Virus record (IMG/VR): IMGVR_UViG_3300009183_005162
Span: 1 to 42,221 of that record
Reading direction: 5' to 3' (one strand)
From: a virus
Length of the DNA: 42,221 bases
The notes under the pieces were generated by a model. That model searched no databases. It was not told the origin of the DNA and saw nothing but the letters and a program-made list of their open reading frames with translations. Below, one piece after another: positions 4,457-39,787 of the stretch. Both the position numbers and the translations under genes were made by a program. Position 1 is the stretch's first letter. Each line of letters opens with the position of its first letter.

Positions 4457-4535
4457 GTCCGCGCGGAAGGAATTGAACCTACGTGTTACCGTCTACCCTT
4501 TCAACCGTGTATCAGACGGAGGGGATACGCGCGGA
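4457..4535 (-). ncRNA. tRNA-like RNA without a canonical D/anticodon region
   Basis: This 79-base segment between two true tRNAs has an 8-bp acceptor-like stem (TCCGCGCG with CGCGCGGA) and a T arm (GTAGG-TTCAATT-CCTTC, one mismatch). The central part does not fold as a tRNA: there is no D-loop GG and no 7-base anticodon loop on a good 5-bp stem. Instead CCGTCT can pair with AGACGG around 19 bases, or CCGT with ACGG around CTGATAC. It may be a decayed tRNA or a stable RNA processed like one, as with the non-tRNA stable RNAs C and D in the T4 tRNA cluster. Confidence 0.6.
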
Positions 4536-4547
4536 TTACTTCTACTA

Positions 4548-4630
4548 TGGTATCGGCAGGATTTGAACCTACAAGCTCTTGCGAGGGTTGATTTACAGTC
4601 AACTGAGCCAGCCAATTGCTCAACGACACC
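4548..4630 (-). tRNA. tRNA-Tyr (anticodon GUA)
   Basis: Type II tRNA on the minus strand: acceptor GGTGTCG/CGATACC, D arm GAGC-AATTGGCTG-GCTC, anticodon stem GTTGA/TCAAC around CTGTAAA (anticodon GTA), long variable arm including CTCGCAAGAG, and T arm GTAGG-TTCAAAT-CCTGC, discriminator A. It is the first gene of its transcript, starting only about 10 bases from the promoter. Confidence 0.95.
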
Positions 4631-4640
4631 GTACTCCTAA

Positions 4641-4669
4641 AGTATAATTCCCCACCTGATACTTGTCAA
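4641..4669 (-). promoter_or_regulatory. Sigma-70-type promoter for the Tyr/Arg tRNA group
   Basis: Minus strand TTGACA (4669-4664), 17 bases, TATACT (4646-4641). The predicted start near 4634 is immediately before tRNA-Tyr. Confidence 0.82.
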
Positions 4670-4677
4670 GTGGGGAA
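4648..4677 (-). terminator. Hairpin whose loop holds the -35 box
   Basis: Arms TTCCCCAC (4648-4655) and GTGGGGAA (4670-4677) pair perfectly over 8 bp. The 14-base loop contains the -35 hexamer of the tRNA promoter. It lies just after the dsbA-like gene (stop at 4711) in the transcript direction and could end that transcript, though only a short U-containing run follows. Confidence 0.5.
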
Positions 4678-4710
4678 CTAAACATTCATTAATTATGAAT
4701 ACTTATTCAA

Positions 4711-4971
4711 TTACACTGACGATTTCGTGACATTTTCGTATAAAGTCTCATATTCTTCGTGTAATGCCACTTCTTCACTAAAGTTCTGCTTGTGATACGT
4801 CTTGGCAAGTTTCGTGAATACCTTCTTATTCAGGTCTAATTCCTTGCAAATATCGTTTTTAATATTCTTCTGAAGGTCACGTTCTGCGTCCATGCGAGTA
4901 AGGGACGTGCTCATATCCTTAATTGCACCCATCAGTTTCAGTTTGTCGTTTGGATTCATTGTATTTAACAT
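4711..4971 (-). CDS. dsbA: DsbA-like double-stranded DNA binding protein
   Basis: 86 residues, highly charged and helical. The C-terminal half (NDICKELDLNKKVFTKLAKTY-HK, then EVALHEEYETLYE) matches the pattern I recall for T4 DsbA, a small late-expressed DNA-binding protein reported to aid late transcription. Its length is nearly the same as T4 DsbA (89). A consensus-like promoter at 5012-5040 lies directly upstream, inside the end of the previous gene. The homology is from memory of the T4 protein and is moderately sure. Confidence 0.65.
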   Translation of the reverse strand: MLNTMNPNDKLKLMGAIKDMSTSLTRMDAERDLQKNIKNDICKELDLNKKVFTKLAKTYHKQNFSEEVALHEEYETLYENVTKSSV

Positions 4972-5000
4972 ATTACCGTGCCGTAAATAGAGTTGATTAC

Positions 5001-5016
5001 ATCATACTTGTATGAT
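5001..5016. repeat. Dyad overlapping the dsbA -10 box
   Basis: ATCATAC-TT-GTATGAT is a perfect 7-bp inverted repeat that overlaps the -10 box (5012-5017) and predicted start of the minus-strand promoter. It could be an operator for a repressor or a hairpin at the 5' end of the mRNA. Confidence 0.4.
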
Positions 5017-5040
5017 ACTACAATGCTTTCAATTTGTCAA
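5012..5040 (-). promoter_or_regulatory. Sigma-70-type promoter for dsbA-like gene
   Basis: Minus strand TTGACA (5040-5035), 17 bases, TATCAT (5017-5012). The -35 box encodes part of the last codons of the upstream glycosyltransferase, whose stop codon is at 5018-5020. Confidence 0.75.
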
Positions 5041-6082
5041 CCCATATCTTTTCAGTTCTGGTTACATATAATCGTAACGCAATTCGTTGCCAATCTAACC
5101 ACCCAAAATATTTTTCGTAAAATAATGTTCTACCCATAGTATCCGCAATCTTCTTTGCTTTTGTTGAATCTGCCACAAAGAACTTTGGCATCCAATCAAT
5201 TTCTTTGGAGGTTACGATTGGAACATCTTCACTGACAAAATCTGCGGCAACAATATTAAAGGTTTCTGAAAACGATACCTGTAATCCAATGTCCACTTTC
5301 TTAATTACCTGTAAAAACTCTTCACGGTCTAACCACCCATGCTCGACTAATTCGTGGTGGCCACCAAGTCCATGAAAAAATGCCCGCAGATTTTTTAATA
5401 CGGTATCACCCTTCCCTTCAACACGACCAGAATTAATGTGAAATCTGCACTTTAGTCCGTTGCGTTCGGCATATTCAACTGCCGCAGCTGCCTGCATCAA
5501 ATGATTTTTCATAGGACGAATTGCACCAAAGCACCCAACATTAATAGTGCGTGTATGATTTGCAAGTTTACTATATTTTGTTGATGGTTTTATTGGATAA
5601 AAATTTGGTAAAAATATAATTTTACGGGCAAGTGATGGATGTAATGATGCCTCAAAATAATGTTCCAAGTCACGCTGTGCCAAATCCGAATTTGCTGACA
5701 CATATACATTTTTTTGATGGATATATTTATTAATCCATTCAAATGCCACTCCTTCGTTTGCTAAAAACGGCAATTCACTATGCAATCGTACAATCCATTT
5801 TACGTCTGGGTGTAGTTTGCACAACACATCAAACTTTTCGGGGACAACCCACAATGCTTCAATGATAACAATGTCAGGTTTATACTTGATGACTTCGGTG
5901 TGAATCTGATTGTTATCCACCACTTGTACTAAATCTGCCGTATAACCATTTTTAATCAGCATATCTTTTACAAACGTTGCAGAATTAAATAATCCTGAAT
6001 GCTTTAGGATGGTTGATTCTCCACCGGATTGCTGACGCAATTTCAGTATAAATAATACGCGAGGAGTTTTTTTGTGCGACAT
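5018..6082 (-). CDS. Glycosyltransferase, GT-B type
   Basis: 354 residues with a two-lobed GT-B look. The N-terminal lobe has RVLFILKLRQQSGG, VKDMLIKNGY and YKPDIVIIEALW. The C-terminal lobe has INVGCFGAIRPMKNHLMQAAAA, a nucleotide-sugar-site pattern like GT4 enzymes, and a late SFSETFNIVAADFVSEDVPIV stretch resembling the GT4 E-x7-E region. Phages use such enzymes to modify their DNA or virion, or host surface sugars; the substrate cannot be told. It stands alone between dsbA and the A1S_2505-like gene. Start at 6082, preceded by GAGAACTTCA. Confidence 0.75.
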   Translation of the reverse strand: MSHKKTPRVLFILKLRQQSGGESTILKHSGLFNSATFVKDMLIKNGYTADLVQVVDNNQIHTEVIKYKPDIVIIEALWVVPEKFDVLCKLHPDVKWIVRLHSELPFLANEGVAFEWINKYIHQKNVYVSANSDLAQRDLEHYFEASLHPSLARKIIFLPNFYPIKPSTKYSKLANHTRTINVGCFGAIRPMKNHLMQAAAAVEYAERNGLKCRFHINSGRVEGKGDTVLKNLRAFFHGLGGHHELVEHGWLDREEFLQVIKKVDIGLQVSFSETFNIVAADFVSEDVPIVTSKEIDWMPKFFVADSTKAKKIADTMGRTLFYEKYFGWLDWQRIALRLYVTRTEKIWVDKLKAL

Positions 6083-11161: not shown

Positions 11162-11632
11162 ATGACTGATCGTGAACAATTAAAACAAGAAATTGACAGA
11201 TTAAAATATGAACTATCTGTTACTATCCCACAGGAAATGCAGTCTGCAGCAGAGATGGGCGATTTAAAAGAAAATTCAGAGTTTTCTGAGATTGTAACTC
11301 GACAGCAATTTGCTGGTATACGCCTAAATCAATTAATACAACGACTTACCGCATATAAACAGATTAATTTAAATCGTATCCCAAGAGATAAAGTAGGGAT
11401 GGGATCAATAATTACTGTATATCATGTTGAAACTGATGCCACCAAAACATTTAAATTGGTATTAGTAGAAATATCCAACGAGGAACCACCATTATATACA
11501 GAAATAACGGTGAATTCTCCAGTCGGAAAATCCTTATATAATAAATCTATTGGTGATGATGTTATAGTATTATTACCCAACGGAAAGGCAACCTATAAAA
11601 TAGTTAATTTATTGACGATCCATGATATTTAA
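11162..11632 (+). CDS. greA: GreA-like transcript cleavage factor
   Basis: 156 residues, the normal GreA length. The N-terminal coiled coil carries the conserved tip MGDLKENSEF with the catalytic acidic pair (D34, E37, equivalent to E. coli D41/E44). The C-terminal half is the FKBP-like domain (VGMGSIITVYHV, ITVNSPVGKSLYNKSIGDDVIVLLPNGKATYKI). It should bind the secondary channel of host RNA polymerase and rescue backtracked complexes. Gre factors are rarely phage-encoded; with the intact tip it is probably active rather than an inhibitor. Confidence 0.92.
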   Translation: MTDREQLKQEIDRLKYELSVTIPQEMQSAAEMGDLKENSEFSEIVTRQQFAGIRLNQLIQRLTAYKQINLNRIPRDKVGMGSIITVYHVETDATKTFKLVLVEISNEEPPLYTEITVNSPVGKSLYNKSIGDDVIVLLPNGKATYKIVNLLTIHDI

Positions 11633-12093: not shown

Positions 12094-12437
12094 GGGCGTA
12101 ACCTGGTTTCGACGGGGTGTGGATGATTAAGCTTTGTATCTCGTTTGGTAAGACGAGTAAAACAGACCAACAATTTCAAACGGCAACCAAAACTTAGCCT
12201 TAGCAGCCTGATCTTTTAGATCCGCTGCTTGACAAGATACTGATCCATATAAGGTATTTTGTAATCGAATATGGTATAACATTAGAAAATGAGTTGATAT
12301 CTAATGTAGAATTCCTCAACTCAAAACTGCGTGGGTTAGCCACTTATTAAAACGCGGTGTAGTACAACAAGTGGCTATATACATAAACACTTAATAGAAA
12401 GCAATCTCGGACGGCGGTTCGATTCCGCCTACGTCCA
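12094..12437 (+). ncRNA. ssrA: Transfer-messenger RNA (tmRNA), tag GNQNLALAA
   Basis: The 5' end has the tmRNA hallmark (AACCTGGTTTCGACGGGG). The 3' end has the T arm GGCGG-TTCGATT-CCGCC and acceptor TACGTCC, which pairs with 5' GGGCGTA, giving the G3-U70 pair that AlaRS reads; discriminator A, CCA not encoded. The tag frame at 12182-12211 reads G-N-Q-N-L-A-L-A-A-stop (TGA), with the stop in the helix AGCAGCcTGATC/GATCcGCTGCT, as usual. Pseudoknot-like pairings follow. It should rescue stalled ribosomes and mark proteins for ClpXP-type proteases through the ALAA end. The resume codon GGC is inferred from tag alignment. Confidence 0.95.
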
Positions 12438-12473
12438 CTTAAAGGTTCATGTTAATAATTTGATGAGATACAT

Positions 12474-14769: not shown

Positions 14770-15294
14770 ATGACAAGAAAATGGACTATGCAGGCCGTAC
14801 CAGCTACTGTAATTGCCAAGGAAATGGAGTTCAACCGAGAAAATTTGTTAACCTCGTTTGACAAGTTATTTGATGACGCATTTCGTGGAACATATCCAGA
14901 TGTATACAAATCATTTGGAATTGACCCATTTAGTAAAACATCATATCCCAAGGTAAATGTGGTATCGTTTGAAAATAAAATTGAAATTGAAGCAGAAATT
15001 GCAGGATATACAAAAGATAATATTTCAGTACAGATCGAAGATAATGTGTTAAGTATTGTAGGAAAGGCTGCGGCCGCCGAAACAGACGATTCGTTAACGC
15101 ATAAAGGTATACCAACCAAAGTATATATTCTTCGGGAACTGAAACGCAGTTCGTTTAGTCGATCATTTACATTGAATGATCAGTTGGACGCAGAAAAAAT
15201 TGATGCTACTTTTAAAGATGGGTTACTCAAACTGGTTATTCCACGAAAGGTACAAGTCTCACAAAGTAAAGTTAATACGGTTACAATTAAATAA
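14770..15294 (+). CDS. Small heat-shock protein (Hsp20/alpha-crystallin)
   Basis: 174 residues. The alpha-crystallin domain spans about 58-165: PKVNVVSFENKIEIEAEIAGYTKDNISV, DNVLSIVGKA, then KRSSFSRSFTLNDQLDAEKIDATFKDGLLKLVIPR, matching the conserved F-x-R-x-F-x-L and G-x-L-x-x-x-x-P pattern. The N-terminal tail is short. TGGAGAAGTATT precedes the ATG. Such chaperones are common in T4-like cyanophages and are thought to protect phage or host proteins during infection. No TTGACA promoter is seen upstream. Confidence 0.93.
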   Translation: MTRKWTMQAVPATVIAKEMEFNRENLLTSFDKLFDDAFRGTYPDVYKSFGIDPFSKTSYPKVNVVSFENKIEIEAEIAGYTKDNISVQIEDNVLSIVGKAAAAETDDSLTHKGIPTKVYILRELKRSSFSRSFTLNDQLDAEKIDATFKDGLLKLVIPRKVQVSQSKVNTVTIK

Positions 15295-37406: not shown

Positions 37407-37988
37407 ATGGTTATGAAAAAACGCATTAACAAATTGAGCCACTCAACAGATGTCCATGCTATATTTAATGGAACAACTGATGATGTGGCTCAATTGCGTT
37501 TACCTAAACCACGAACGCCATCTGCGCAAGCCGTACAAAAAACCGCTATCCGAACGGAGTGGCAGGAAAAATTTCTGGAAAAAATAAAATCGTGTCATAA
37601 ACGCAATTTAAACAAAGTAGTGAATAAGATTTTAAAACGAATAGATTCTACTAAAGTTGCAATGGTAGCGCGATCAAAAAAACACAATGTTGAATGTAAT
37701 ATCACCGTCGAAGAACTCAGAGAATTAGTATATAATTTTTATGGGCAACAATGTAAATACTGTGATAAGATATTAAATATTAACACCTTTGTATTCGATC
37801 ATATTATTCCCATATCAAAGGGTGGGTCGAGTAATATAGATAATATTCAGTTAATATGCAAAACCAGCAATGGGATGAAAGGATCATTGCACGAAAATAA
37901 CTTTCAATTATTGCTGGATTGGCTAGAGACGATTCCAGAGGAACTGAAAAAAGATATCAGTATTAGATTAGCCCGAGGTGTGGTATAA
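37407..37988 (+). CDS. HNH endonuclease, probable homing type
   Basis: 193 residues. The HNH core is YGQQCKYCDKILNINTFVFDHIIPISKGGSSNIDNIQLICKTSNGMKGS, with the DHxIP and the Asn of the N-H region. Only the first CxxC is present; the second has become ICKTSNG, so zinc binding may be weakened or absent. The N terminus is basic. It lies between the structural block and the primase promoter, with a second endonuclease 180 bases downstream, which is typical for free-standing homing endonucleases. No strong ribosome binding site. Confidence 0.82.
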   Translation: MVMKKRINKLSHSTDVHAIFNGTTDDVAQLRLPKPRTPSAQAVQKTAIRTEWQEKFLEKIKSCHKRNLNKVVNKILKRIDSTKVAMVARSKKHNVECNITVEELRELVYNFYGQQCKYCDKILNINTFVFDHIIPISKGGSSNIDNIQLICKTSNGMKGSLHENNFQLLLDWLETIPEELKKDISIRLARGVV

Positions 37989-37991
37989 CCC

Positions 37992-38020
37992 TTGACAACT
38001 GGTGGGTATCTACATAACTT
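37992..38020 (+). promoter_or_regulatory. Sigma-70-type promoter of the displaced primase start
   Basis: TTGACA (37992-37997), 17 bases, TAACTT (38015-38020), with CCC before the -35 box. Located 7 bases before the ATG of the primase remnant. It may still serve the endonuclease and intact primase downstream. Confidence 0.75.
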
Positions 38021-38026
38021 ACAAGT

Positions 38027-38128
38027 ATGACTATACTCACACTACTCCAACAAATTATAGGGAATTATACCCAGCAGACAGATGAATATCTATTTCACTG
38101 TCCTTTTTGGTTAATAGTACGTTTTTGA
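38027..38128 (+). pseudogene. Remnant of the primase 5' end, cut by endonuclease insertion
   Basis: A 33-residue frame: TLLQQIIGNYTQQTDEYLFHCPFW, then unrelated LIVRF and a stop. This matches the N terminus of the intact primase (TLLQEVLGPYVQQNNELLFNCAFC), with 13 of 24 residues identical and about 60% identical bases by hand count. Similarity ends inside the second zinc Cys codon (TGG here, TGC in the primase), at about 38109. The promoter and start lie directly upstream, so this is very likely the original 5' end left behind after the endonuclease gene arrived. Many differences are silent, so both copies have a coding history. Confidence 0.75.
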
Positions 38129-38166
38129 ATGCCCTTTCCTATATTTATAGACATAGGAGATATAAT

Positions 38167-38940
38167 ATGCATACACGAAACTGTCCAAATTGTCATAAAT
38201 TAATTGAGTATAAATACCGAACTGGTTGGTACAAAGCTAAAAAATCAAATTCTCTGTGCAAAAGTTGTTCTGCAAAGACATATAGAAAATCAAAATATAA
38301 TATAAAAACCAAATCAATAGACGGTAAACTTTTATATGTGCGAGAATGTCCCGGTTGTAAGAAAGAACTGGTCAATATAAATTATAGAAAGTACTGGGAT
38401 GCAGTAAAATATAATAAAATGTGTAAATCCTGTGCCTCGACCAACCGGCACAACCTCAGTGAATTAAGTAACTGTGAAATTATTGACGGAATTCGAAAAT
38501 TTTATAGAAGTTGTCCAAACTGTAAAAATAAAATATATTATAAAGTACCAGAACATGCACGTAGGTTTATGAACAGCTTATGTAAAAATTGTGCTCCTCT
38601 TTCACAAAAATACGTATATCCAAATTTTAATGAAACTGCTTGTAAAATAATTGATGATTACGGTGATTTGAATGGATATAAGTTTCAACACGCACTAAAT
38701 GGTGGAGAATTTTTAGTACCAAATACACGTTATTATGTTGATGGATACGATATAGTACAAAACGTAGTTATAGAAGTTGACGAATCACATCATAAGTATC
38801 AAATAGAACATGATGCTTTAAGACAACAAGAAATTATAAAGCAATTGAAATGCAAATTCATAAGGTTGGTATTTGATGAACATAAAAATAATTACATTAT
38901 TACAAGAAGTACTAGGTCCATACGTACAACAGAACAATGA
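38167..38940 (+). CDS. Homing endonuclease with three zinc motifs and Vsr-like nuclease domain
   Basis: 257 residues from the ATG at 38167, behind AGGAG. Three paired CxxC modules (CPNC/CKSC, CPGC/CKSC, CPNC/CKNC; residues about 6-34, 61-89, 116-142) are followed by a C-terminal nuclease-like domain. There, YYVDGYDIVQNVVIEVDESHHKYQIEHDALRQQEIIKQLKCKFIRL has the D...ExD.xHH...D..R pattern of Vsr/DUF559-type PD-(D/E)XK nucleases; such domains occur in EDxHD homing enzymes. Its last 21 codons overlap the start of the primase gene in another frame. Interrupts the original primase start. Confidence 0.8.
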   Translation: MHTRNCPNCHKLIEYKYRTGWYKAKKSNSLCKSCSAKTYRKSKYNIKTKSIDGKLLYVRECPGCKKELVNINYRKYWDAVKYNKMCKSCASTNRHNLSELSNCEIIDGIRKFYRSCPNCKNKIYYKVPEHARRFMNSLCKNCAPLSQKYVYPNFNETACKIIDDYGDLNGYKFQHALNGGEFLVPNTRYYVDGYDIVQNVVIEVDESHHKYQIEHDALRQQEIIKQLKCKFIRLVFDEHKNNYIITRSTRSIRTTEQ

Positions 38941-39787
38941 ACTGTTATTCAACTGTGCATTTTGCCATCATGCAAAGAAGAAACTCTCGGTAAATATATC
39001 AAATAATAAGTGGAAGTGCTGGACATGCGGTAGTAAAGGTGGTCATATCATCTGGTTATTAAAAAAACTGAATATTTCAAAAGAACTTATTAATCAGTTT
39101 AAAGAAGTATTGGGTGATGAAGATATCAAAATCTACAAATCTACGACGGCAGATATTAAGTTATATCTTCCACACGAATATCAACCACTATGGAAAACAC
39201 AGAAAAGTTATGCATATTTAAATGCAATTTCGTATTTGAAGCATAGAGGAATTCGGTCGGATGATATATTGCGATATCGTATGGGATACTGTGAAACTGG
39301 TCCCTATGCAGGCCGTATCATTGTTCCATCTTACGATCACACCAATCAATTAAATTATTTTACTGCACGATCTTTTTACGATGGTGGGATGAAATATAAG
39401 AATCCTCCCGTCACAAAGAATATTGTGTGTTTTGAAAATATGGTAAATTGGAAGGATCAAATAATTTTATGCGAGGGCATGTTTGATGCTATATCTCTTA
39501 GGAGAAATGCTATACCGTTACTTGGCAAAACGATCCCGAAGAATTTGGAAAAAGCATTGTTACAAAACAAAGTAAAAAATGTAATTATTTTTTTGGATGA
39601 AGATGCGCAATCTGACGCTATGAAATTGGAACAATATCTTAAACAGTATGAGATACATGTCAGTGTCGTTTTAACGAAGGGTAAAGATGCATCTGACATG
39701 GGGTTCGAAACTGCATGGGAAGAAATTAGTAAATCTCGTAGTACAAATTTTAAAGAATACATTGAACAACGGTTATTAAATATATGA
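38876..39787 (+). CDS. 61: DNA primase, gp61-like
   Basis: 303 residues from the ATG at 38876, inside the upstream endonuclease gene. The zinc ribbon is C27, C30, C48, C51 (CAFC, CWTC). The TOPRIM fold carries E200 (ILCEGMFDAI) and the D241-E-D243 metal site (IIFLDEDAQSDAMK). Between lie the RNA-polymerase-like region (IVPSYDHTNQLNYFTARSF). Size is close to T4 gp61 (342). It would make RNA primers with a gp41-type helicase at the fork. AAGG lies about 10 bases upstream. Its 5' end has a different history from the promoter-linked remnant. Confidence 0.88.
   Translation: MNIKIITLLQEVLGPYVQQNNELLFNCAFCHHAKKKLSVNISNNKWKCWTCGSKGGHIIWLLKKLNISKELINQFKEVLGDEDIKIYKSTTADIKLYLPHEYQPLWKTQKSYAYLNAISYLKHRGIRSDDILRYRMGYCETGPYAGRIIVPSYDHTNQLNYFTARSFYDGGMKYKNPPVTKNIVCFENMVNWKDQIILCEGMFDAISLRRNAIPLLGKTIPKNLEKALLQNKVKNVIIFLDEDAQSDAMKLEQYLKQYEIHVSVVLTKGKDASDMGFETAWEEISKSRSTNFKEYIEQRLLNI

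Follow-up and report, generated by a model that had tools for sequence, protein, structure and literature searches.

A predicted zinc-repeat endonuclease joined to a substitute primase 5' end: a probable end-replacing, intronless homing element in a phage

Homing endonucleases of the EDxHD (Vsr-like) type, such as I-Bth0305I, are phage-borne and combine a modular DNA-binding part with a PD-(D/E)XK-like nuclease. In T4-like phages, SegF, SegG and MobE are free-standing enzymes that support intronless homing, a process for which co-conversion of the flanks is the classical mark (PMC2988022). Replacement of a gene end by a homing element is known from yeast and from fungal mitochondria. In the yeast WHO system, the enzyme cuts a sensitive FBA1 allele and the downstream FBA1 fragment serves as the second homology arm in repair (PMC7282813); the gene thereby receives a resistant 3' end, and its former end stays behind as a stranded fragment (Coughlan et al., 2020, eLife, PMC7282813). 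The mORFs of fungal mitochondria were described in Allomyces atp6 and in Glomus atp6, atp9, cox2 and nad3 and, in Glomus, the native end is 91.2% identical to a relative, whereas inserted and native ends share 63.5% (PMC3630166). We found no phage precedent for end replacement in the literature searched, where absence is no proof, and no earlier report of a phage case such as the one described here, which is new as far as that literature extends.

The window analysed is a whole stretch of 42,221 bases, positions 1 to 42,221 of IMG/VR virus record IMGVR_UViG_3300009183_005162, and the parts of the primase locus described below lie on its + strand. An intact primase gene encoding 303 amino acids (38876–39787), of the DnaG type (PHROG 47, E=1.6e-43, with Toprim and zinc ribbon found), is preceded by a predicted endonuclease gene encoding 257 amino acids (38167–38940), and the primase ATG at 38876 lies within the last 21 endonuclease codons in a different frame; the sequence-only reading of this DNA had noticed this overlap, which is borne out by the ORF coordinates. 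The leader of the endonuclease gene (38110–38166) contains a Shine-Dalgarno sequence, AGGAG (38155–38159), and an inverted repeat (TCCTAT, 38137–38142; ATAGGA, 38153–38158) that could mask it, although the hairpin, present in the fold, is not significant against shuffles (z -0.88). Upstream, a short frame (38027–38128, stop at 38126–38128, translation MTILTLLQQIIGNYTQQTDEYLFHCPFWLIVRF) had been read as 33 codons resembling a primase N terminus and, in fact, a primase search of the whole record gave two matches, the gene itself and this remnant frame (E=3.7e-5, 48% amino acid identity, 29 residues). Among 1,161 ORF starts in all fetched loci, it is the sole translated 5'-end duplicate above threshold. 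The HNH (endonuclease VII-like) gene farther upstream (37407–37988) was considered as the mobile agent and rejected, because it occurs in relatives both with and without the insert; it would be a resident neighbour that forms the left homology flank. An HNH gene stands before the primase at the same place also in the more distant phages L044 and L059 (45–60% identity), so this endonuclease VII-like gene may be resident rather than a homing gene.

The sequence-only reading had proposed a search for an undisrupted primase at this locus in related phages, and such a gene is present in the viral contigs L004/L005 and L006/L007. Their gene order is that of the window (HNH, primase, SbcC-like), with one uninterrupted primase and no endonuclease, and their flank identities to the window are ~89–92% for L004/L005 and 80–84% for L006/L007; a pattern in which both frames are conserved as separate genes, with no uninterrupted primase, is thus not what the relatives have. 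Window and relatives are collinear up to 38109, the window then has ~855 extra bp, and collinearity resumes from ~38965. The remnant (38027–38109, 83 nt, delimited by the search with the primase and by alignment to relatives) is 87–89% identical to the uninterrupted primase 5' ends, its two halves sharing 95% and 78% identity with L004, and 88% and 90% with L006. As anticipated, its homology stops in the second zinc-Cys codon (TG|G vs TGT/TGC), exactly at 38109, and no match to the undisrupted primases continues beyond this point. From the collinearity with these empty alleles, we take the 38027–38109 fragment to be the original primase 5' end, cut inside the second zinc-Cys codon.

The expressed primase has another 5' end. 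This substitute copy (38876–38964, right edge approximate) reads MNIKIITLLQEVLGPYVQQNNELLFNCAFC, its start being MNIKIITLLQEVLGPYVQQ, and shares 57.6–59.1% identity with L004, L006 and the remnant, and 51.5–56.1% with L018/L026, the next relatives out. Primase codons 24–60, right after the substitute end, are 84–91% identical to L004/L006, and the primase outside the new 5' end is ~84–93% identical to relatives. The two 5' copies of the window share 59% DNA identity over 22 codons, in agreement with the difference of about 40% of bases noticed before; the extent given to the second copy had to be corrected, as it runs to ~38964. A YxQQ/HxQQ pattern is common to the window primase, L004, L006, L018 and L026 and is absent from more distant primases, so the substitute end probably came from within this near group. 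No close match to it was found among ~80 more distant primases, and a degenerate DNA pattern for QEVLGPYVQQ matched the window's own phage alone. That the endonuclease arrived together with a foreign primase 5' end, as the sequence-only reading suggested, is thus upheld with regard to replacement (an outlier end of 58–59% identity, and empty alleles), and a foreign origin, to which no donor could be assigned in these searches, is the best reading of the source.

The flanks of the insert carry a further trace, which goes beyond what the sequence-only reading had in view and supports its proposal of intronless homing. We defined as informative those sites that distinguish L004 from L006 and at which the window agrees with either. 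The window is mostly L004-like, and a left tract (38068–38109, 8/10 informative sites) and a right tract (38965–39059, 11/14) are L006-like, in total 19/24 sites vs 81/455 in the remainder (Fisher p=4.6e-10), a density not attained in any of 20,000 shuffles of the labels. The densest L006-like stretch of tract size lies exactly at the insert. With such sites on both sides of it, both flanks seem to have travelled with the insert from an L006-like phage, the left one over ~40 nt and the right one over ~95 nt. An assembler that joined two strains could produce a similar tract, but not the structure of the insert, and phage recombination without a programmed cut could likewise leave a short conversion tract.

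The 257-residue protein has three Cys4 zinc-type repeats (read from its sequence) followed by a C-terminal PD-(D/E)XK-like (DUF559/Vsr-type) domain. Its family comprises 98 distinct ORFs in the fetched DNA, nearly all viral, in varied places and several per genome. Across the 46 nuclease domains that were aligned, VDGYD is invariant, as are single N, E, H, D, R and I positions. The match to Pfam DUF559 is marginal (domain score 20.8 vs cut-off 20.6) and AlphaFold2 gave a confident model of the nuclease domain (pLDDT 85), the predicted fold of the whole protein being poor (pLDDT 53). Fold matches in the PDB are varied nucleases, mostly PD-(D/E)XK-like or of the splicing-endonuclease type, and are weak (best E 0.024, nothing below 0.001), I-Bth0305I being absent among the 50 matches listed; profile searches of PDB sequences with the endonuclease family gave no match to any solved structure. 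The earlier label "Vsr-like" is therefore reasonable at the superfamily level only, to which the DUF559 score and the fold matches point. The protein runs 24 residues past CKFIR, vs a median of 5 in 53 relatives (at most 16, one fused protein excepted), and its last ~20 residues arise where the primase start is read through in another frame. In the putative mobile unit, the endonuclease gene has no stop codon of its own and runs directly into a primase start.

A group I intron or an intein was considered and rejected: an Rfam search gave no intron around the endonuclease gene, the primase frame is intact without splicing, and the endonuclease is in another frame, the primase having its own start. 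With no self-splicing surround, an empty allele at the same site and co-conversion of the flanks, the element appears to be of the intronless, free-standing type. Two other family members, in L010:3662-7314 and L012:3611-7202, split a family-B DNA polymerase gene at the conserved DTDS region, and here too Rfam detected no group I intron. In L010:2275-3613, another endonuclease ORF is followed by a frame, in a helicase-like gene, that carries what resembles the C-terminal end of an intein (YDLEIQDNHNYIVNGIILHN-C), an arrangement that looks like a fractured, split-intein gene.

Duplicated gene ends were identified beside two more members of the family, which are independent cases. In L124 (IMGVR 3300037264_000710, 4520–5310), an exact 29-bp repeat, TTATGAGTGGAGTCACAATTTCAATTTGG, lies on both sides of a family endonuclease gene (4575–5273) and corresponds to the start of the 397-aa head gene that follows; the longest string shared by unrelated loci has a 99th percentile of 14. 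The start of this endonuclease bears a copy of the ribosome site and start of the target gene (GGAGTAAGTTATG), and the gene, of the head-completion type, relates the contig to Microcystis phage Mel-JY01 and Flavobacterium phage immuto. In L115 (IMGVR 3300025015_000034, 450–1330), the last 53 nt of the upstream gene (450–716), including its stop, recur after the endonuclease at 47/53 positions (89%), and shuffled flanks match at most 33 positions; several family members occur inside 55 kb of this contig. ORF starts across 1.93 Mb otherwise gave only low-complexity repeats and paralogous endonucleases, and flank-scan repeats in L148, L011, L103 and L129 were discarded as self-overlaps, low complexity or paralogous endonucleases. 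A duplicated end of a neighbouring gene was thus found in only 3/92 family members with readable flanks, a small share that counts against the homing model; in these cases the family would seem to duplicate a neighbouring gene end on either side. The relatives of the L124 target gene are only ~50% identical and the L115 gene is without other relatives, and neither case has an ancestral allele.

The two 5' copies of the primase might also derive from a local duplication, in which the endonuclease inserted together with a target-site-like duplication of the start of the primase gene, of which the downstream copy then diverged in place, in order to escape cutting or owing to its overlap with the endonuclease frame. 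The exact 5' duplicate of L124 indicates that identical copies do arise in this endonuclease family. However, the remnant, which is free of coding constraint, is the copy that remained close to functional relatives (87–89%), whereas the expressed and constrained copy is at ~59%; drift predicts the opposite. Moreover, family members do not conserve the overlapping tail of the endonuclease, which would thus impose little constraint. Since conservation is seen in the copy that is free of coding constraint, we regard duplication followed by drift as unlikely.

It could also be argued that ordinary phage recombination brought in a chimeric primase together with an inert nuclease gene, the nuclease not driving the exchange, as its domain has only weak links to known nucleases. 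Nevertheless, the nuclease core residues (D, D, E, H, D, R), invariant in the 46 relatives, are intact in the window protein, and the family is spread over varied places of viral contigs, with several of its 98 distinct ORFs per genome. The insert coincides exactly with the break point and has short conversion tracts on either side, and the gene-end duplication recurs in L124 and L115, which makes passive exchange improbable, more so than duplication. An assembly chimera of two strains or phages is hardly credible, even though the contigs are metagenomic and one matching contig (L003/L098, identical over 10.6 kb) joins unrelated sequence past window position 39699. The two junctions and the endonuclease/primase overlap fall at separate points of a continuous unique sequence; L004- and L006-like strains stitched together could mimic the tract but could not yield an endonuclease attached to another 5' end; and L124 and L115 have the same design in other contigs.

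We consider it probable, then, that the locus holds an intronless, end-replacing homing element of a phage, whose unit is the predicted endonuclease gene plus a substitute primase 5' end. The enzyme would cut an endonuclease-free primase near the conserved zinc-cysteine codons (~38109/38965), and the break would be repaired from an element-bearing phage, with the stranded 5' fragment and the HNH gene as left arm and the primase body as right arm. The endonuclease gene and the divergent 5' end of the donor would be copied in, the recipient's own 5' end would be left behind as an upstream fragment, and the resulting chimera would restore the open frame and lose the target sequence, becoming resistant to cutting. 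The history may have had two steps, a founding insertion in an L006-like lineage and then ordinary homing into this L004-like phage. The founding event was probably a repair from one side only: the right broken end would have copied leftward through the donor primase start and the preceding endonuclease gene, and the left end would have been joined without homology. The L003/L098 contig has the same arrangement and, given its identity over 10.6 kb to the window, may not be an independent second case.

Of the known systems, WHO at FBA1 is the closest in design: in both, a zinc-finger or zinc-repeat endonuclease gene lies beside a full-length chimeric essential gene with the old end stranded on the opposite side, the replaced end has diverged far more than the remainder of the gene, and there is no splicing. 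The features of the WHO-type design are found here, since the endonuclease gene sits between a full-length target and a stranded fragment of the same end, with a divergent new end and a fragment of recipient type. A mirror image of the WHO mechanism predicts a recipient-type remnant, a chimeric full gene, a divergent replaced end and conversion over both arms, and all of these are seen in the window. The differences are that the target is a phage primase, that the 5' rather than the 3' end is swapped and that the nuclease is unrelated; WHO proteins are intein-derived, and for the window element cutting is predicted and no cluster of successive insertions was seen. Membership of the WHO family by descent (intein-derived, HO-like, at FBA1) was thus rejected, the nuclease domain being PD-(D/E)XK/DUF559-like and the target a phage primase. 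The mORFs are alike in that an endonuclease ORF supplies a foreign gene end that takes over while the native end is stranded, with similar divergence, and unlike in that the C-terminal end is replaced, by LAGLIDADG or GIY-YIG enzymes, in mitochondria. With SegF, SegG and MobE the element shares an intronless endonuclease gene beside its presumed target, spread with co-conversion of the flank. However, the T4 enzymes lie between genes or split them, whereas the window element is inside a gene, gives it a new start and leaves a fragment. With EDxHD enzymes it shares a phage-borne, modular architecture of a DNA-binding part and a PD-(D/E)XK-like nuclease domain, here predicted; unlike them, the window enzyme is not intron-borne and has no sequence match to any solved structure.

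That phages have an end-replacing homing class of their own, parallel to WHO and built on the zinc-repeat PD-(D/E)XK-like family, with a substitute 5' or 3' end as resistance cassette and the old end as homology arm, is a generalization for which we see about even chances. If it is correct, essential phage genes, such as those of primase and a head protein, would acquire ends that differ in history, which would explain chimeric essential genes in phages that may mislead gene trees and gene calling. If the phage version, with its unrelated nuclease, recurs at both gene ends, the spare target-gene end would represent a convergent, splicing-free entry into essential genes. One small enzyme, with synthetic empty and chimeric alleles, would provide a simple test system.

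The consensus-like promoter proposed for the remnant found no support, as TTGACA (37992–37997) is without a matching -10, promoter-like sites in the region (11) are not in excess of the shuffle mean (15.5), and the 38-nt leader is poorly conserved (69% between window and L006). T4-type late promoters (TATAAATA) show no excess within the window. In Microcystis phage Mel-JY01 (L014:2394-2906), the gene of a GIY-YIG protein stands directly 5' of the primase gene, so the primase start may be a nuclease hotspot. In L003:6825-7922 (IMGVR 3300027782_000285), the sequence past window position 39699 enters an apparently bacterial enolase-superfamily gene, a chimeric contig end. By eye, the window also encodes a PAS-repeat protein (1307–2422), a GreA-like protein (11162–11632) and a small heat-shock (Hsp20-like) protein (14770–15294). 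The phage has, in addition, six tRNA genes and a tmRNA gene (12094–12438) with the tag GNQNLALAA.
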